The notes under the pieces are model-generated. The model searched no databases. It was not told where the DNA came from and saw only the letters and a list, made by a program, of their open reading frames with translations. A program made the position numbers and the translations under genes. Of a stretch of DNA of 64,000 nt, positions 874 through 13,864 are shown piece by piece. Position 1 is the stretch's first letter; every line of letters starts with the position of its first letter. The stretch is from Gemmatirosa kalamazoonensis (GTDB lineage: Bacteria; Gemmatimonadota; Gemmatimonadetes; Gemmatimonadales; Gemmatimonadaceae), in assembly GCF_000522985.1 (NCBI RefSeq), contig NZ_CP007128.1, positions 1,472,220 to 1,536,219 of the forward strand, in the 5' to 3' direction.

Positions 874-2292
874 GTGCAGCCAGCCTTTCGGTCCTTCCGT
901 CTTCACGTGGCGCTGCTGTCGTTCGCGCTGCTCGCGGTGCTCGGCGCCGCTCCAGCCGCGCAGGCCGCGCCGTCACGACTCGCGGTGACCGTCACGGTGA
1001 CCGGCGCCGGCGCAGGGACGGGCACGATCGCCAGCAACCCGTCCGGCATCGACTGCCGCATCTCGGCCGGCACCGCGACCGGCACGTGCTCGGCGAGCTT
1101 CGCCGAAGGGACGGTGGTGACGCTCATCCCCACCGGCTCCGCATCCGGCAGCTTCACCGGATGGAGCGGCGGCTGCTCGGGCAACGCGAACTGCACGCTG
1201 ACGCTCCCCACGACACCGGGGTCGGTGAGCGTCGTCGCGACGTTCGCCGCGAGCACGAACGCGGCGGTCGCGGTCGCCGGCGCGGGCACGGGCAGCGGTC
1301 GCGTGACGAGCGTGCCCGCCGGCATCGACTGCACCGTGACGAACGGCGTCGCGAGCGGCGCCTGCAACATCCTGTTCCCGTTAGGCGGGCCGGTGACGCT
1401 CACCGCCGCGGCGGCGTCGGGCAGCGCGTTCGGCGGCTGGGCGGGCGCGTGCAGCGGCGCGGCGACGTGTCAGATCCAGCTCACCGCGAACGCGAGCGTC
1501 ACCGCGACGTTCAACCGCGCGACCGGCGGCACGACGTCGACGCTCACCGTCACCGGCGCGGGTACCGGCTCCGGAACCGTGGCGAGCGTCCCGTCGGGGA
1601 TCTCGTGCACGATCGCGGCGGGGGTCGCGAGCGGTACCTGCTCGGCGAGCTTCGCCGCGGGCAGCGTCGTGACGCTCGTGCCGACGGGATCGGCGAGCGG
1701 CAGCTTCACCGGCTGGAGCGGCGCGTGCGTCGGCACCGCGAACTGCGTGGTGACGATGCCCGCCGCGGGCGGCACCGCGACGGTGTCGGCCACGTTCGTT
1801 CTGAGCACGAACGCGGCGATCGTCGTCGCCGGCGCCGGCAACGGCGGCGGGCGTGTGACGAGCGCGCCGGCGGGGATCGACTGCGGCGTGACCAACGGCG
1901 CGGCGAGCGGCGCGTGCAACATCCTGTTCCCGTTAGGCGCCACGGTCACGCTCACGGCGACGGCGCAGCCGGGAAGCGGGTTCGCCGGGTGGAGCGGCGC
2001 GTGCACCGGCACGGCGCCGTGTCAGATCCGGCTCGCCGCGGCGGCGAACGTGACCGCGACGTTCGCCGTGCTGCCCAACGTCACCGCCGCGGTGAACGAT
2101 CTGTTCGACGGCCGCTCGCTCACCGCCGCGGAGCGCTCGGTGCTCGATGCGCTCGGCAACGCCGACGGCACGTTCAACCTCGGCGACGTGCTGTCGCTGC
2201 TCGACCGCACGGGGCAGCGGCTCAGCGTGCGCACGCTGGAGCGATTGCTCGCGCTGCCACCATCGCCGCCGAGCGCGCGGAGGACGCCGTGA
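874..2292 (+). CDS. Secreted InlB-repeat protein with C-terminal dockerin-like motif
   Basis: A 472-residue exported protein starting at GTG; residues ~8-32 form a signal peptide ending in AAQAA. It then has four tandem ~85-residue repeats (about 36-123, 130-213, 222-308, 313-398), each with the pattern GxGxGxVxSxPxGIDC...C...F..G..VTL...FxGWxGxC...C...VxATF, that is the divergent InlB B-repeat/'bacterial repeat' fold with two Cys pairs per unit. Residues ~407-447 contain a calcium-loop-like motif, NADGTFNLGDVLSLLDR, resembling one half of a type I dockerin. Known dockerins bind cohesins; here that is only inferred. The stop overlaps the GTG of the next gene by 4 bp, so the two are coupled. 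Repeats 1 and 3, and 2 and 4, are more alike, suggesting duplication of a two-repeat block. Confidence 0.8.
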   Translation: MQPAFRSFRLHVALLSFALLAVLGAAPAAQAAPSRLAVTVTVTGAGAGTGTIASNPSGIDCRISAGTATGTCSASFAEGTVVTLIPTGSASGSFTGWSGGCSGNANCTLTLPTTPGSVSVVATFAASTNAAVAVAGAGTGSGRVTSVPAGIDCTVTNGVASGACNILFPLGGPVTLTAAAASGSAFGGWAGACSGAATCQIQLTANASVTATFNRATGGTTSTLTVTGAGTGSGTVASVPSGISCTIAAGVASGTCSASFAAGSVVTLVPTGSASGSFTGWSGACVGTANCVVTMPAAGGTATVSATFVLSTNAAIVVAGAGNGGGRVTSAPAGIDCGVTNGAASGACNILFPLGATVTLTATAQPGSGFAGWSGACTGTAPCQIRLAAAANVTATFAVLPNVTAAVNDLFDGRSLTAAERSVLDALGNADGTFNLGDVLSLLDRTGQRLSVRTLERLLALPPSPPSARRTP

Positions 2293-2999
2293 GGACGCGA
2301 CGCATCTCCGCGCGCGGCGCGCTCGGCGCCGCGTTAGGCACCCTGCTCGGCGGCTGCGGCGGGGGCGGCGGCGGCATCGCGCCGGTCACGCCGCCGCCCC
2401 CGCCGGTGACGTTCGCGCTCTCGGTGACGGGATCCGACGTCGGCAGCGGACGCGTGACGTCCGCCGACGGGAAGATCGACTGCCGACTCGGCGCCGGCGG
2501 CGGCGGCACGTGCTCGGCCTCGTTCAACTCCGGCGCGAGCGTCTCGCTCACCGCGACGCCGTCGGGCACCGACCAGTTCGCGGGCTGGACGTCGGGGCCG
2601 TGCACCGGCACGACGAATCCGTGCACCGTCGTCGTGTCCACGAACGTCGCGCTCGCCGCCGGCTTCCGCCCCGCGGTGAAGCAGGTGACGCTCTCGCTGC
2701 AGACGCCGAACGCCGACGACGGCGCGGTGCTGCTCACGCTCACCGGCCCGAGCCTGCTCGCCATCCGGCCGAGCGCGGGGCTCGAGATCAAGGAGGTGCG
2801 CGACACCGTGGCCGGCGCGCCGCGCTCGCGCATGCTCCTCCGCGGCGCGCTCGCCAGCGGCGTGGTCGCCCAGCTCGACATCGCCGGCAGCGCGACGCCG
2901 GCCCAGTACACGGCGCAGATCCAGCAGGTCGCCGCCCGCGCGAGCGGCCGCTACGCGCAGCGCACCAGCCTCGCCGGGTACGCGCTCACGGTGCAGTGA
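2289..2999 (+). CDS. Lipoprotein with one InlB-type repeat and a beta-sandwich-like domain
   Basis: 236 residues from a GTG that overlaps the preceding stop (GTGA). The N-terminus is a lipoprotein signal with lipobox LGGC (Cys at ~23), followed by a Gly/Pro linker and a single InlB-type repeat (~45-125; GWTSGPCTG and CTVVV motifs) like the four in the upstream gene. The last ~105 residues (VTLSLQTPNADDGAVLLTL...) look like a beta-sandwich; I suspect a cohesin-like fold pairing with the upstream dockerin-like segment, but I cannot demonstrate it. Co-translation with the upstream protein supports a two-component surface structure. Confidence 0.75.
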   Translation: MRTRRISARGALGAALGTLLGGCGGGGGGIAPVTPPPPPVTFALSVTGSDVGSGRVTSADGKIDCRLGAGGGGTCSASFNSGASVSLTATPSGTDQFAGWTSGPCTGTTNPCTVVVSTNVALAAGFRPAVKQVTLSLQTPNADDGAVLLTLTGPSLLAIRPSAGLEIKEVRDTVAGAPRSRMLLRGALASGVVAQLDIAGSATPAQYTAQIQQVAARASGRYAQRTSLAGYALTVQ

Positions 3000-3020
3000 C
3001 GGGAGGACTGGCTCTTCGTA

Positions 3021-3199
3021 TCGAACCGCCGAGGGCCGCCGAGGGCCGCAGAGAACGGCAACTGCTTTCTCAACCACAGAGGACGCGGAGGACACAGAGG
3101 AGAACCCTTCAAGAGAAGTTGGTTTTCTCTGTGTCCTCCTGTCCTCTGTGGTTCGATGCCAAAGGCCTCCGCGGCCCTCGGCGGCCCTCTGCGGTTCAC
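3021..3199. repeat. Nested double hairpin repeat element (families A and A')
   Basis: Two hairpins, one inside the other. The outer arms (about 3021-3054 and 3165-3199) are built from tandem CCGAGGGCCG/CCGCAGAG units; the inner arms (3071-3104 and 3123-3153) from AACCACAGAGGA/GACACAGAGG units. The element fills the gap between the lipoprotein and the sigma factor. The outer type recurs at 27454, 37884 and 41599, and the inner type again at 37936. Confidence 0.8.
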
Positions 3200-3283
3200 T
3201 CACATGGCCAGGACCCGTGTCGAGCGACGAGTAAACGCCGGAGCCGCTCGCGGCATCTACATGGTGGGCGCCCGCACCGACTC

Positions 3284-3922
3284 ATGTCCCGACCGTCCGC
3301 CACTACCGCCGTCGTGTCGATCCAGCCCGCCGCTGCGCTCCATGCGGCGGCGGGCGCGTCCGAGAGCGCGCTGGTGGCCCGGGCCTCCGGCGGCGACGGC
3401 GACGCGTTCGCGACGCTCGTCGCGCGGCTGCTGCCGCTGGTGTATCGCTGGGCGCTCGTCCTCGCCGACGACGTGGACGACGCGGACGACATCACCCAGG
3501 ACGCGTTCGTGCAGATGCATCTCCGGCTCGCGCAGTTCCGCGGCGAGGCACCGCTCGAGGCGTGGCTGTACGGCATCGTGCGACGCGCGGCGGGGCAGCG
3601 GCGGCGCAGGGCGCGGCGGCGCGCCCGCCTGGCCGCGCTGCCGCGCGCGCTGCCGGAGCGCGACGTCTACGTCACCGACCCCGGTGCGCGCGTCGACCGG
3701 CAGCAGCTCCTGATGAAGGTGCGCGCGTTCTTCGCCGCGCTGCCCGCTCGTCAGCGCGAGATCGTCGACCTCGTCGACCTCCAGGGCTACGACCCGATCG
3801 AGGTCGCGCTCATGACGGGGATCAAGCCGGCGACGGTGCGCGCCAACCTGTTCAAGGCGCGCGCGGCGGTGCGTGCGCATCTCATCGCCCGGCACCCGGG
3901 CGTCGCGGAGGTGGAACGATGA
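3284..3922 (+). CDS. ECF-type RNA polymerase sigma factor
   Basis: 212 residues with the two helical domains of sigma70 family ECF factors. Region 2 (~40-100) carries DADDITQDAFVQMHLRLAQF and, following it, EAWLYGIVRRA, the usual core-binding and -10-recognition helices; region 4 (~150-200) carries LPARQREIVDLVDLQGY and a helix-turn-helix ending KPATVRANLFKARAAV. The start ATG at 3284 is chosen because it precedes the conserved region by a normal ~35 residues. The stop overlaps the ATG of the anti-sigma gene (ATGA), the classic sigma/anti-sigma arrangement. Regulon unknown. Confidence 0.9.
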   Translation: MSRPSATTAVVSIQPAAALHAAAGASESALVARASGGDGDAFATLVARLLPLVYRWALVLADDVDDADDITQDAFVQMHLRLAQFRGEAPLEAWLYGIVRRAAGQRRRRARRRARLAALPRALPERDVYVTDPGARVDRQQLLMKVRAFFAALPARQREIVDLVDLQGYDPIEVALMTGIKPATVRANLFKARAAVRAHLIARHPGVAEVER

Positions 3923-4734: not shown

Positions 4735-5973
<1,239 letters not shown>

Positions 5974-9728: not shown

Positions 9729-10601
9729 CTAACGCACCACCAGGATCGCCGTGTAATCCGACTCGACGGGCTCGGGCCGATCGGCGCCGATCACCTTGAA
9801 CGGCGACAGCCCGACGAGGCGGAACTCCGCGCCGCCGACCGTCGTGCCCACGAGGCCGATCTTCGCGCTCGTGTGCAGCGTCACGTCGCTCGTCTGCGCG
9901 CCACTCTCGAACCGCAGCGCGACCGCGGCGTCGCCCTCCCAGATGCACAGCGCGTTGATGGGGCACCGGCTGTCGTTCAGCACGTGCTGCAGCGTCACGC
10001 GCACGCCGTGCGTGTCCACCGTCTTGCCGAACGCGACGCGCACCGTGTCGTAGCGTGCGGCCGGGTTGCACGCCGTCACGGCCGTCCGCTCGACGAACCG
10101 CACCGGCTTGTTGTCGCGCCGCGGCAGCTGCACGACGTCGAACGGCCGCGTGAGCACGCCGAGCGTGACGCAGTCCGACGCCGGCGAGGTCTCGACGACC
10201 TGCACGTCGAGATGGTCGGCCCACTCCGTGACGCTCTCGATCTTGATGCCGTAGCCGCTCGACGGGCGCACCGGCGTCGCGACGGCGATCACCATGTCGC
10301 GCGTGAAGTCCACCGCGGGCGGCGCGCCTCCCGCGTTCGGGTCGGGCGCGAGCGACGCCCAGAACTTGGACCACGTCGCCGCGTCGGCGATCACCTGCCG
10401 CTGCCGCGCCGTGTCGCCCGGCTGCCGGCCGGCGCCCTGGCCGGTCGACACGTCGAAGTGGCCGACGATGAGCGCCTGCCCCCCCGCCTGCGGCGTCGGC
10501 TCCGTGGACACCGCGTCGTCGCCGCACGCGGCGAGCGCGGTGAGCGATGCGAGCGCGAGCGCGGCCGCCACGCCGCGCGCGTATGACGTCATCCGTGCCA
10601 T
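9729..10601 (-). CDS. Lipoprotein with PrcB-type domain and a DSRCP-containing domain
   Basis: 290 residues. A lipoprotein signal with lipobox LAAC is followed by ~150 residues like the PrcB C-terminal domain (VDFTRDMVIAVATPVRPSSG, VVETSPASDC, RPFDVVQLPR). A second domain (~180-290) has VLNDSRCPINALCIWEGDA and a VESDYTAILVV ending, a pairing often seen in secreted lipoproteins of this kind; its function is not known to me. The ATG at 10601 has GAGGAA just upstream. The TAG stop lies in a GCCTAAC heptamer. It faces the PIG-L gene with 9 bp between stops. Confidence 0.8.
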   Translation of the reverse strand: MARMTSYARGVAAALALASLTALAACGDDAVSTEPTPQAGGQALIVGHFDVSTGQGAGRQPGDTARQRQVIADAATWSKFWASLAPDPNAGGAPPAVDFTRDMVIAVATPVRPSSGYGIKIESVTEWADHLDVQVVETSPASDCVTLGVLTRPFDVVQLPRRDNKPVRFVERTAVTACNPAARYDTVRVAFGKTVDTHGVRVTLQHVLNDSRCPINALCIWEGDAAVALRFESGAQTSDVTLHTSAKIGLVGTTVGGAEFRLVGLSPFKVIGADRPEPVESDYTAILVVR

Positions 10602-10716
10602 CTGTTCCTCTCTCGGTCGATCGGTCGAGCTCTCGTGGACTGCGGCGCGCCTCCGTGCGCGCTCGAGGGGCATTACCGAGCGTGCCCCGCGTCGGTCACG
10701 CCTCGCGCGTCGTGCG

Positions 10717-11937
10717 TCACGGCACGACGAGCAAGCCGCTCCGCTCGCCGAAGTCGTCCTCCACGCTCGGAAGGTTCGCCGGCGGACGCCACGCGCCGCC
10801 ATCCAATCGAATCGTTAGGCGCACGGTGCTGGGCTCCGCGCTCAGCGCGATCTCCCACAGATCGCCGACGCGCGCGAGATCGGCGGCGCGCCAGCCGGTG
10901 AAGTCGCCGCGCACCTCCACGCGCGATGCGCCGGGCGCACGCACGCGCAGCACGCGCCGCGCGCCGCGCACGACCACCTCGGCCGCCGGCGTCGCACCGC
11001 CGAGGCTCGACCCGCGCGGCGCGCGCGCCGGGGCGCCGCCGAGTCGCCAGCGGAGCCCCACCGCGGCCACGCGGCGCGCCGGAAAGCCCCGCAGCGGATC
11101 CGCCGCGAGATCGCCGGCCGACGCGGTGAGCGCGGCGCGCGGCAGCACCCACCACGCTCCGGTCACGTACACGGAGTGGAGCGTCTCGCTGTCCTGGCGC
11201 GGCGCGCGGCGCAGCACGGCGGTGCCGCCGAGCTCCACCACCGGCGCGCGCCACTCCGCGGCCGCGGTCGCGTCGAGCGCGACGAACGGGTGCGACGGCT
11301 CGCGCGGCAGCGTCGTGACGACGACCCCCTGGTCGTCGACCAGCACGACCGTCGTGTCGAGCCGGGTGCGGAGCGCCGCGAGCGTGATCGATGCCCGCAG
11401 CCGGTCGTGCCGAAGCCACCCGCCCGTCTCCACGCTCCCCACTGGCGCGACGTCGCCGCGACGCCGGCCGAGCACCCCGCCACTCGCGCCGAGCCACAGG
11501 CCGCCCGCGCCGAGGGCCAGGTGCCGTCGCGCGAGCGCGACCCCGCTCGCCCCTGCCGGCTCGCCGTTGAACTGGAGCGCCGACGCCGTCGCGCCGAGCT
11601 CCCACGCCCCGCGCGTCGCGACCGACGACAGCCACGACGCCGCGAGGTCCCCCTGCGCCGACCACCGATCGCTCCCGCCGAGCGTCGCCCCGGCCGCGGC
11701 GCGCAGCGCGGTGCGCGCGCCGTCCAGCCGCAGCTCGCCGGCCAGCGTGGGCGCCGTCACCGTGGGCTCCGCCGGCTGCCGCAGCGTCGCCGCGCCGACG
11801 TCGACCGTGCCCTGGCCATGGAACGCCGACTGGCCCCACCCCGCGCGCGCTCCGAGCGGAGCGGCGAGGAGGCAGAGCCATCGAGCGGCGTGGAGGCGAT
11901 TGGAGGGGCGTGTCGGTCGTCGTCTTCGGCGGTGCAC
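10717..11937 (-). CDS. Secreted beta-rich protein with C-terminal glycogen-binding (CBM48-like) domain
   Basis: 406 residues. Arg-rich n-region and a hydrophobic segment (LCLLAAPLGARAGWGQ) form a signal peptide. Residues ~35-320 are repetitive, Ala/Gly/aromatic-rich and strand-like (AWELGATASALQFNG, GLWLGASGG), compatible with a surface barrel. The last ~75 residues (VRAPGASRVEVRGDFTGW ... LWEIALSAEPSTVRLTIRLDGG) match the early-set/AMPK glycogen-binding fold, with the GDFTGW signature. It is the last gene of the sigma-factor operon starting at 13864, whose anti-sigma gene carries the same type of domain. Confidence 0.75.
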   Translation of the reverse strand: MHRRRRRPTRPSNRLHAARWLCLLAAPLGARAGWGQSAFHGQGTVDVGAATLRQPAEPTVTAPTLAGELRLDGARTALRAAAGATLGGSDRWSAQGDLAASWLSSVATRGAWELGATASALQFNGEPAGASGVALARRHLALGAGGLWLGASGGVLGRRRGDVAPVGSVETGGWLRHDRLRASITLAALRTRLDTTVVLVDDQGVVVTTLPREPSHPFVALDATAAAEWRAPVVELGGTAVLRRAPRQDSETLHSVYVTGAWWVLPRAALTASAGDLAADPLRGFPARRVAAVGLRWRLGGAPARAPRGSSLGGATPAAEVVVRGARRVLRVRAPGASRVEVRGDFTGWRAADLARVGDLWEIALSAEPSTVRLTIRLDGGAWRPPANLPSVEDDFGERSGLLVVP

Positions 11938-11946
11938 GCCCTCAAC

Positions 11947-12609
11947 TTAGGGCTTGGACGTGGGGACTGCGGTACGGCCGATCGGCGCCGGGGCCGGCGG
12001 CGGGAGCGCGGCGATCACGGCGCGGAAGCGGAGGTCGAGCGCGGTCGACGGCGGGACGCCGGCGGCGAGATCGTCCTGCACCTCGCGCTGCATCGACAGC
12101 AGCTGCGCGTGGCTCGCGCCGCGCTGGACGAGCGTCGCCACCGCCTGCGCGGCGCGCGCCGCCGGGACCCCGCGCACCGTGAGCTGCGCGAGCACGCCGA
12201 GCGCCACGGTGATCGAGCGGCTCGGCGCGGCGAGGCGCACGACGCGGATCGCGTCGGCGGTGACGCCGGCGGCGAGCGCCCCCGCTGCGGCGTCCAGCTC
12301 GGCCGGCGAGGCGGTGGGAGCGAGCGCGTCGCGCGCGACGAGCAGCCGCCCCACCATCGCCCGCACGGCGGCCTCGATGCGCTCGCCGGGCGCGCCCTTC
12401 TGCACCCCCTCCAGCGCCTTCGTCACGAGCGGCTCGCGCGGCAGCCCGCGCCCCTCGGCCTCCACGATGATGGCCCCGACGGCGGCGCGCGCGTCGGCGT
12501 CGGGGATCGCGGACAGCCGTGCGTCCTGCGCGCGGAGCGGGGCGACCCAGCCGCCCAGCGCGAGAGCCGACGCGACGACGGCCGCGGCGAGCGTGCGGCG
12601 CACCGTCAC
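11947..12609 (-). CDS. Secreted alpha-helical protein of unknown function
   Basis: 220 residues from a GTG overlapping the upstream stop (GTGA). A signal peptide (~8-30, ending LRAQ) precedes an Ala-rich, helical region with no recognisable catalytic motif (IVEAEGRGLPREPLVTKALE ... GASHAQLLSMQREVQDDL) and a proline-rich tail. It lies between the two glycogen-binding-domain genes and is co-translated with the anti-sigma gene, so it probably belongs to the same envelope function. I do not recognise the family. Confidence 0.75.
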   Translation of the reverse strand: MTVRRTLAAAVVASALALGGWVAPLRAQDARLSAIPDADARAAVGAIIVEAEGRGLPREPLVTKALEGVQKGAPGERIEAAVRAMVGRLLVARDALAPTASPAELDAAAGALAAGVTADAIRVVRLAAPSRSITVALGVLAQLTVRGVPAARAAQAVATLVQRGASHAQLLSMQREVQDDLAAGVPPSTALDLRFRAVIAALPPPAPAPIGRTAVPTSKP

Positions 12610-13226
12610 GGCTGCCCCACGACGATGACCGAGTGGTCGCGTCCGTAGTCGGGGTCGCGCACGACGAGCGCGCTCGGGTCGGTCACCCACACGCTGTCGT
12701 CGACGACGAACGCGTACGCGTGGCGTCCGGGCGCGAGCGTGACCGTCGTCGTCCACGTGCCGTCGGCGGCGCGGCGCATCGGCACCGCGGCCGGGCTCCA
12801 CTCGTCGAAATCGCCGACGAGCGAGACTCGGCGCGCGCCCGGACGACGCAGCGCGAACGCCACCGCCACCGGCGTGTCGTCGCTCCGCCCCGCCGTCGCG
12901 AGCCGCAGGTTCCCCGTCGCGGCTGCCGGCGTCGTGGGAGGCAGCGCCGCCGTATCCGTCGTCGCGGTGCTCGCCGTCGCCGTCGTCGTGCCGGACGCGG
13001 CCTCGCGCCGCCCGAACCACACGCCGCCGCCGGCCAGTCCCACGGCGAGCGCGAGCCCCGCCGCGCGGGCGAGCCACGTCCGCTGCCGGGCGCGCGTCTG
13101 GCGGCGGGCGAGCGCGGCGGAGACCACGCGGTCGACCGCCCGCGGGTCGGCGGGCGGGAGGCGGCGGAGCGCGTCGGTCACGCGCTCGAGCCCCGTGCCG
13201 TCGTCGAACGAGGAGGGCCCGGTCAT
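12606..13226 (-). CDS. Putative membrane anti-sigma factor with periplasmic glycogen-binding domain
   Basis: 206 residues directly after an ECF sigma gene, overlapping its stop by ATGA. The cytoplasmic ~55 residues (LERVTDALRRLPPADPRAVDRVV) lack a clear zinc motif. One membrane helix spans ~59-80 (ARAAGLALAVGLAGGGVWFG), then a Thr/Ala-rich linker, then an AMPK/CBM48-type domain (~120-200) with VSLVGDFDEWSP, DGTWTTTVTLAPGRHAYAFVVDD and a DPSALVVRD end. The family binds alpha-glucans; if the domain faces the periplasm the protein could couple glucan sensing to sigma release (inference). Confidence 0.8.
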   Translation of the reverse strand: MTGPSSFDDGTGLERVTDALRRLPPADPRAVDRVVSAALARRQTRARQRTWLARAAGLALAVGLAGGGVWFGRREAASGTTTATASTATTDTAALPPTTPAAATGNLRLATAGRSDDTPVAVAFALRRPGARRVSLVGDFDEWSPAAVPMRRAADGTWTTTVTLAPGRHAYAFVVDDSVWVTDPSALVVRDPDYGRDHSVIVVGQP

Positions 13227-13864
13227 GCGAGCGCTCCGAGCTGGGCGCGGAGCGCGTCGCACGCGCGCTTCACGCGCATCTTGAGCGCCGAGAGGCCGGC
13301 GCCGGTCACGGTCATCATCGCTTCGTAGTCCATCCCTTCGACGTGTCGCAGCAGGAACGCCTCGCGCTGCTCGCGGGGCAGAGTGTCGAGCGCTCGGCGG
13401 ATCTCCTCGCTCCATTCCGCGTCGCCGGTGGTGTCGCGCATCGGCGTGCGCTCGATCGGCGCCTCGACGCGCAGGCGGCGCCACCACCGGCCGCGCCCGT
13501 GCGCGGTGCGGCAGCAGTTCGCGAGGATGCGGAACAGCCACGGCTCGAACGGCGCCGACGCGTCGAACCGGTCGAGCGCACCGTGCGCCCGCACGAGCGC
13601 GTCCTGCACCGCCTCCTCCGCGTCCTCCTTGCCGAGCCCCATGTTCGCCGCGAAGCGGAGCATGCGCGGGTAGTAGCGCTCGACGAGCAACCGGAACGCG
13701 ATCGGGTCGCCGTCGCGCGACAGCGCGACGAGCTCGCCCGCCGGCGTCGCGCTGCCGGCGTGCAGCCGGTCGGCGCCGCGGACGACACGGAGCGAGGCGC
13801 TGCCAGGGGGCATCGCGTCGCTCACGGGACGGGGAAGGTGATCGCGTGCATGGTCGTGCAACAT
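13223..13864 (-). CDS. ECF-type RNA polymerase sigma factor
   Basis: 213 residues. Region 2: AFRLLVERYYPRMLRFAANM, DAEEAVQDALVRAHGALDRF and PWLFRILANCCRT; region 4: LPREQREAFLLRHVEGMDYE with the helix-turn-helix MTVTGAGLSALKMRVKRACDAL. The N-terminal ~40 residues before the conserved part are not typical and the start may be internal (Met near residue 18). First gene of a four-gene minus-strand operon (sigma, anti-sigma, helical secreted protein, CBM48 barrel), with the first three linked by 4-bp overlaps. Confidence 0.9.
   Translation of the reverse strand: MLHDHARDHLPRPVSDAMPPGSASLRVVRGADRLHAGSATPAGELVALSRDGDPIAFRLLVERYYPRMLRFAANMGLGKEDAEEAVQDALVRAHGALDRFDASAPFEPWLFRILANCCRTAHGRGRWWRRLRVEAPIERTPMRDTTGDAEWSEEIRRALDTLPREQREAFLLRHVEGMDYEAMMTVTGAGLSALKMRVKRACDALRAQLGALA

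Follow-up and report, generated by a model that had tools for sequence, protein, structure and literature searches.

A recurrent ECF sigma factor module of Gemmatimonadota with CBM48-type domains on the anti-sigma factor and on a predicted outer-membrane barrel

Gene order of the operon

What signal is read by an anti-sigma factor whose predicted periplasmic part resembles the glycogen-binding module of AMPK, and why does a predicted outer-membrane protein of the same operon carry a second domain of this type? The question was raised by a four-gene operon on the minus strand of a 64,000-nt stretch (the window) of the Gemmatirosa kalamazoonensis chromosome (5,311,527 bp; genome 7.48 Mb), which runs from an extracytoplasmic function (ECF) sigma factor through an anti-sigma factor and a secreted helical protein to a beta-barrel. 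The same set of genes recurs in the genome and across Gemmatimonadota. As a tentative answer, which we regard as quite possible, a trans-envelope ECF sigma circuit would read a saccharide in the periplasm, which may have entered through the CymA/OmpG-like barrel.

The sigma gene (13223..13864, minus strand; 213 aa from the first ATG, with a later start possible at 13813) encodes a protein made up almost wholly of regions 2 and 4_2, and both Pfam matches are over the cut-off (Sigma70_r2, PF04542, 52.7 bits; r4_2, PF08281, 40.2 bits). Its stop is overlapped by 4 bases by the gene of a single-pass anti-sigma factor of 206 aa (12606..13226, minus strand), which in turn overlaps by 4 bases the gene of a secreted all-helical protein of 220 aa (11947..12609, minus strand). 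After a gap of 9 bases follows the gene of a 406-aa protein (10717..11937, minus strand), which according to its predicted structure is an outer-membrane beta-barrel with a C-terminal CBM48-type domain. Signal peptides were predicted for the helical protein and the barrel. The two 4-base overlaps and the 9-base gap point to a coupled operon. The original prediction had proposed a sigma/anti-sigma operon, and this was supported by the Pfam sigma matches together with the overlapping, adjacent one-pass membrane protein; its coordinates, gene order and GDFDEW and GDFTGW motifs were all correct.

Recurrence in Gemmatimonadota

The genome contains three full copies of the module. Six AMPK1_CBM places were found in it, one in the window anti-sigma factor, two each in L001 and L002 and one in L003; the window's barrel domain falls below the threshold of this search. 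The full set is arranged in the same gene order in L002, and in the order barrel, sigma, anti-sigma, helical protein in L001. At L003 (G000:C2:3673000-3680000), a pair of a sigma factor and a CBM48 anti-sigma factor (2172-3414, plus strand) stands without helical protein or barrel, and the genes after it are, as we take them from their sequence, groES-groEL.

Sixty regions were picked by hand from the best CBM48 matches in Gemmatimonadota, about one or two per genus, a choice that favours strong matches. All four genes were present in 44 of these regions. The arrangement is thus not a product of chance, given the two further full copies in the genome and these 44 regions elsewhere. Eight regions had sigma, anti-sigma and helical genes and no barrel, and the barrel was therefore rejected as an obligatory part. 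Helical and barrel genes alone were seen in two regions, while at contig ends one region lacked the helical gene (L036) and one lacked both helical and barrel genes (L070). No sigma gene was found in four regions, two of them at a contig edge (L039 and L085) and two with none within the stretch (L089, of genus g63, and L090). The last two hold an anti-sigma-like CBM48 protein together with a barrel and a helical protein. At L037 and L046, pairs of a helical gene and a CBM48 barrel gene were observed with no sigma or anti-sigma gene in the 10 kb read, and these pairs are possible targets in trans.

The anti-sigma factor and its predicted periplasmic domain

At most loci, the anti-sigma gene begins within the end of the sigma gene or directly next to its stop. 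In the window protein, one membrane helix was predicted (residues 52-70; 13017..13073, minus strand; mean hydropathy 1.42), with six Lys/Arg before it and two after it. Among 62 anti-sigma factors, Lys plus Arg were more numerous before the helix than after it in 58, equal in three and fewer in one, with the topology derived from hydropathy and charge counts. This charge bias places the CBM48 domain in the periplasm, and the extracytoplasmic location that had been proposed for it is thereby borne out as a predicted topology.

The domain itself (residues 122-203; 12618..12863, minus strand) contains GDFDEW at residues 138-143 and, by alignment to AMPK-beta1, the tryptophans W143 and W180. It was over the Pfam cut-offs for AMPK1_CBM (38.7 bits; cut-off 26.8) and CBM_48 (34 bits; cut-off 22.4), and a match to AMPK1_CBM/CBM48 at E up to 0.1 was obtained with Pfam in all of 38 anti-sigma members. 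Domain and profile comparison gave matches to AMPK-beta, pullulanase, branching enzymes and other alpha-glucan-binding modules. The domain is the best-conserved part of the anti-sigma factor; anti-sigma and barrel domains were separated by hydropathy and the assignment was then corrected by hand. None of the 38 members matched a known Pfam anti-sigma family, and the HxxxCxxC zinc motif, absent from the window protein, was found in 0 of 62. According to the accessible text of an anti-sigma survey (PMC7406223), class I anti-sigma domains without zinc exist, and class I anti-sigma factors accompany about 79% of the ECFs in Gemmatimonadetes.

The barrel protein and its second CBM48-type domain

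The model of the barrel protein (pLDDT 81.7, from a 19-row alignment) has 14 long strands, a poorly predicted linker and then the C-terminal domain. The barrel part (residues 40-299; 11041..11820, minus strand; pLDDT mostly 80-95, lower near 190-220) has a predicted CymA/OmpG-like fold. It aligned with the cyclodextrin channel CymA (4v3h) at Z 19.6 and an rmsd of 4.1 over 251 residues and with OmpG (4ctd) at Z 17.9, the identity being about 6-8% in these alignments, and Foldseek put OmpG first. By hand count in the model, connections 1, 3, 5, 7, 9, 11 and 13 have 6, 5, 5, 5, 24, 8 and 10 residues, and connections 2, 4, 6, 8, 10 and 12 have 3, 6, 2, 2, 3 and 4. With 14 strands and this alternation of long loops and short turns, both ends of the barrel, and hence the C-terminal CBM48-type domain, would be periplasmic. 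The protein had been described as a surface protein, a claim at odds with the strand and loop pattern of the model; the barrel CBM48 is instead predicted to share the compartment of the anti-sigma CBM48.

The C-terminal domain (residues 318-406; 10720..10986, minus strand; GDFTGW at residues 344-349) stayed under the Pfam cut-offs, with 18.5 bits for AMPK1_CBM (cut-off 26.8) and 16.6 for CBM_48 (cut-off 22.4). The barrel domains of several relatives exceed the cut-off, and a profile grown from its own family matched the window's domain at 3e-23. In the model, residues 327-405 were superposed on the AMPK-beta1 module with cyclodextrin (4yef) at Z 12.1 and an rmsd of 1.5 Å over 77 residues, and among the matches listed the AMPK CBM with bound cyclodextrin was the sole one covering the extra domain alone. 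Taken together, the Pfam match in the anti-sigma factor and the fold match in the barrel indicate that both proteins carry the CBM48 fold, so that the original prediction of such a domain in each was upheld, in the barrel through the 4yef fold and the family profile.

Conservation of the binding residues

Residue positions were assigned by alignment to AMPK-beta1. The stacking tryptophan at the W100 position is present in all 62 anti-sigma factors and all 54 barrels, and that at the W133 position in 52 of 62 and 46 of 54; in the window, the pair is W143/W180 in the anti-sigma factor and W349/W383 in the barrel protein. The L146 position is aromatic in 62/62 anti-sigma factors and 44/54 barrels. 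N150 is kept in 48 of 62 anti-sigma factors versus 7 of 54 barrels, where Val takes its place in 31 (in the window, His in the anti-sigma factor and Ser in the barrel domain), and the D136 position is Pro in 53 of 54 barrels. These differences at the N150 and D136 positions weaken the proposal that both domains bind one common ligand. In the L003 pair, the CBM48 match stops shortly past the W133 position.

At the K126 position, Lys or Arg was found in 0 of 62 anti-sigma factors, whereas 62 of 71 CBM48 domains from sigma-less bacterial loci had one. Only one of 54 barrels had such a residue, an Arg, and the window has A172 in the anti-sigma factor and Thr in the barrel domain; among the module loci of a wider scan, two barrels (L103 and L109) have Arg there. 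In AMPK, K126Q abolished glycogen binding and W133L reduced it, as stated in the accessible text of PMC6274970, and that of PMC2642990 reports markedly reduced glycogen binding with Ala or Gly at these positions. The kept tryptophan pair argues for a sugar-like ligand and the missing lysine argues against ordinary glycogen. Because the lysine equivalent to K126 is lost throughout, binding of ordinary glycogen is doubtful, and judged from these residues the ligand is probably a different one. Of the designation "glycogen-binding" given to the two domains, the CBM48 fold and both stacking tryptophans thus stood, and the glycogen part was weakened. A starch-use operon was also considered and found unsupported, as none of the 17 GH13 matches in the genome lies at a module locus.

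The helical protein

The strictest partner in the module is the helical protein, of which the original prediction had made hardly any use. It was predicted to consist of a signal peptide followed by a helical array, and its model is all-helical (pLDDT 91.3). No Pfam or NCBIfam match was obtained for the window protein, and 28 relatives gave scattered weak Pfam matches, each in one or two members. Sequence comparison with the PDB gave nothing under E 0.02, and Foldseek nothing under E 0.001; designed helical repeats matched at Z 10.6, a value that may reflect only a common arrangement of helices, and a new fold is not claimed. It is a secreted family without a relative found in these searches.

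In the window genome, the family occurs in exactly three places, all within module operons. In 16 well-assembled genomes chosen for having CBM48 matches, with distances compared by hand, 27 of 27 helical matches lay within 2 kb of a CBM48 match and 41 of 42 CBM48 matches lay near a helical match. When hand-compared lists were drawn up for 297 Gemmatimonadota genomes, the CBM48 domain was found in 187 and helical relatives in 185, with both in 181, CBM48 only in six, the helical protein only in four and neither in 106. Partial correlations of distances at 47 loci, with the sigma distance fixed, were 0.46 between the helical protein and the barrel CBM48, 0.40 between the barrel and its own CBM48, 0.29 between the two CBM48 domains and 0.15 between the helical protein and the anti-sigma CBM48. 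This covariation hints at a contact between the helical protein and the barrel domain; shared history could give the same signal.

Upstream motif, sigma phylogeny and other phyla

A bipartite, promoter-like motif, TKAC-N14..18-GTCT, was found upstream of 18 of 76 module sigma genes (86 minus nine loci where the CBM48 gene comes first and one duplicate), compared with a mean of 1.5 and a highest count of 4 in 50 shuffles and with 5 of 76 on the reverse strand; the pattern was picked after viewing dyad counts on the same sequences. An expectation-maximization motif search scored slightly over shuffles (821 vs 747-766). The motif is in keeping with self-transcription of the sigma operon. It did not occur ahead of 11 barrel genes that are transcribed separately, and a shared regulon was accordingly not supported. 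Downstream of the window operon lies a lipoprotein gene (9729-10802, minus strand), the C-terminal sequence of which we take to resemble the PrcB_C domain.

In a wider scan of named genomes, modules were found among the best 80 of 337 loci in four Nitrospira-like genomes, Eisenbacteria, Myxococcales, Salinivenus, Chitinispirillaceae, Atribacteria and Bipolaricaulota, so that relatives of the module are seen in Nitrospirota, Eisenbacteria, Myxococcota, Rhodothermota, Fibrobacterota, Atribacterota and Bipolaricaulota. Helical relatives were detected in 25 of 118 Nitrospirota. The Nitrospira-like loci (L101, at 5207-5734 of the plus strand, and the corresponding place in L099, L100 and L104) have a short secreted CBM48 protein in the barrel's stead, with Met at the K126 position and N150 kept; that of L101 has a lipobox. 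The proteins seen at L106, L121, L127, L128, L131, L137 and L158, also of other phyla, are large or lie in clusters; they have a hydrophobic stretch at the N-terminus and at least one CBM48 domain, and no sigma gene was found adjacent.

A sigma tree was rooted with 22 other sigma factors of the window genome and one from Phycisphaerae. It placed 84 of 87 module sigma factors, that of the window included, in one supported group (99/96), within which one long-branched other sigma factor (L200) also fell. A single sigma lineage across phyla was rejected, the sigma factors of Bipolaricaulota, Atribacterota and Fibrobacterota (Chitinispirillaceae) lying outside the supported group.

Proposed circuit and alternative explanations

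In the proposed saccharide-reading circuit, the anti-sigma factor would hold the sigma factor with its cytoplasmic part and read a saccharide with its periplasmic CBM48-type domain. Loss of the anti-sigma factor by regulated proteolysis, or a change in its shape, would release the sigma factor, which may then transcribe its own operon and thereby supply the helical periplasmic protein and the OmpG/CymA-like channel. The periplasmic CBM48 domain of the channel would meet the same class of saccharide on entry. In favour of this circuit are the matches to AMPK-beta and further alpha-glucan-binding modules, the kept tryptophan pair, the likeness of the barrel to a cyclodextrin channel and of its extra domain to the cyclodextrin-bound AMPK module, the predicted periplasmic position of the anti-sigma domain, the recurrence of the operon, the upstream motif and the precedent of RsgI.

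Several observations weigh against this circuit. The K126 position, where substitution in AMPK abolished glycogen binding, holds no Lys or Arg in any of the 62 anti-sigma factors, and the GH13 genes of the genome lie away from the module loci. Eight of the 60 regions do without a barrel. The window promoter has GTGACC and not the full bipartite motif, and the 11 separately transcribed barrels lack that motif too. Finally, covariation peaks between the helical protein and the barrel CBM48, not between the two CBM48 domains.

A close rival, possible though rather doubtful, holds that the CBM48 fold has become a domain on which the helical protein docks. The helical protein would occupy the domains of the anti-sigma factor and of the barrel (in Nitrospira, the lipoprotein) by turns, and its distribution over the two membranes would signal the state or the amount of the outer partner. 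Such docking would account for the tie between the helical family and the CBM48 module (27/27, 41/42 and 181 of 297 genomes with both), for a binding face more hydrophobic than that of AMPK (K126 changed to Ala or Met; N150 to Val in 31/54 barrels) and for the highest partial correlation, between helical protein and barrel CBM48 (0.46, 47 loci). However, the helical protein covaries weakly with the anti-sigma CBM48 (0.15), distance correlations may follow shared history, and modules without a barrel (such as L091 and L068) keep both tryptophans, the aromatic residue and the asparagine in the anti-sigma domain, with no second CBM48 found adjacent. In a further reading, which we consider rather unlikely, a dedicated helical protein of a new family would shuttle between the CBM48 copies on the inner-membrane anti-sigma factor and on the outer-membrane partner, barrel or lipoprotein, and the latter would titrate the inner switch; the carbohydrate fold would then either dock a protein or offer a site for which protein and sugar ligands compete.

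Control of assembly or envelope stress after the manner of RpoE-RseA-RseB, in which the anti-sigma factor and the helical protein would watch barrel assembly and CBM48 would be a mere structural adaptor, is improbable. The RpoE-RseA-RseB order is sigma factor, membrane anti-sigma factor and secreted periplasmic protein, as in the module, and a barrel lies in the operon or nearby at most loci; but neither RseA nor RseB/MucB was matched by Pfam in the module proteins, the barrel is absent from some regions, a CBM48 lipoprotein takes its place in Nitrospira, and no part of the anti-sigma factor is better conserved than CBM48. Glycogen-sized polymers cannot cross a 14-stranded pore, which counts against the account of the original prediction, namely that ordinary glycogen or starch is bound by the anti-sigma factor and by a surface-exposed domain. 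This account draws on the Pfam names, the matches to AMPK, pullulanase and branching enzymes and the conserved tryptophans, and it is very improbable in view of the lost K126 position, at which change abolished or markedly reduced AMPK binding, of the predicted periplasmic barrel domain and of the lack of a GH13 enzyme at the loci.

Comparison with known systems

Few regulators of this phylum have been characterised, and the module offers a sigma circuit for it; it also ties an AMPK-like domain, best known as part of a eukaryotic energy sensor on glycogen, to bacterial transcription control. The uniform loss of the K126 position in the signalling copies, which is kept in other bacterial CBM48 domains, marks a subfamily, and the helical protein stands for a secreted family without a relative found in these searches.

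With RpoE-RseA-RseB, the module shares the order of the operon; it differs in having no common sequence family, a CBM48 sensor and a helical third protein in place of RseB. With the CBM of AMPK-beta, the domains share the fold and the two stacking tryptophans, and most anti-sigma factors share the N150 position as well, whereas the domains have lost the K126 position and are predicted to be periplasmic, on an anti-sigma factor or a barrel. The barrel resembles CymA and OmpG, which are monomeric outer-membrane channels, in its 14 strands (Z 19.6 and 17.9), and differs from them in its low identity (about 6-8%) and in the additional C-terminal CBM48-type domain, predicted to be periplasmic.

No anti-sigma factor with a CBM48, glycogen-binding or isoamylase-early-set domain was found in the literature, in a search that covered few subscription journals; within that reach, the claim that no CBM48-type anti-sigma factor had been described held. 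The closest precedent is SigI/RsgI. According to the accessible text of PMC12203970, the RsgI anti-sigma factors of Clostridium thermocellum have one membrane helix and sense their substrate through carbohydrate-binding modules outside the membrane, so that the principle of a carbohydrate-binding anti-sigma factor is already known. The RsgI modules are CBM3, CBM42, PA14, GH10 and others, and that of the window anti-sigma factor is of the CBM48 type; the RsgI N-terminal domain was absent from the Pfam matches of the 38 anti-sigma members. Unlike SigI/RsgI, the present system has an ECF sigma factor and a two-membrane envelope, together with a helical partner that is conserved and an outer-membrane protein that carries a further CBM48. 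The module is real, widespread and apparently undescribed; it varies the known signalling through carbohydrate-type anti-sigma factors and adds a new secreted partner.

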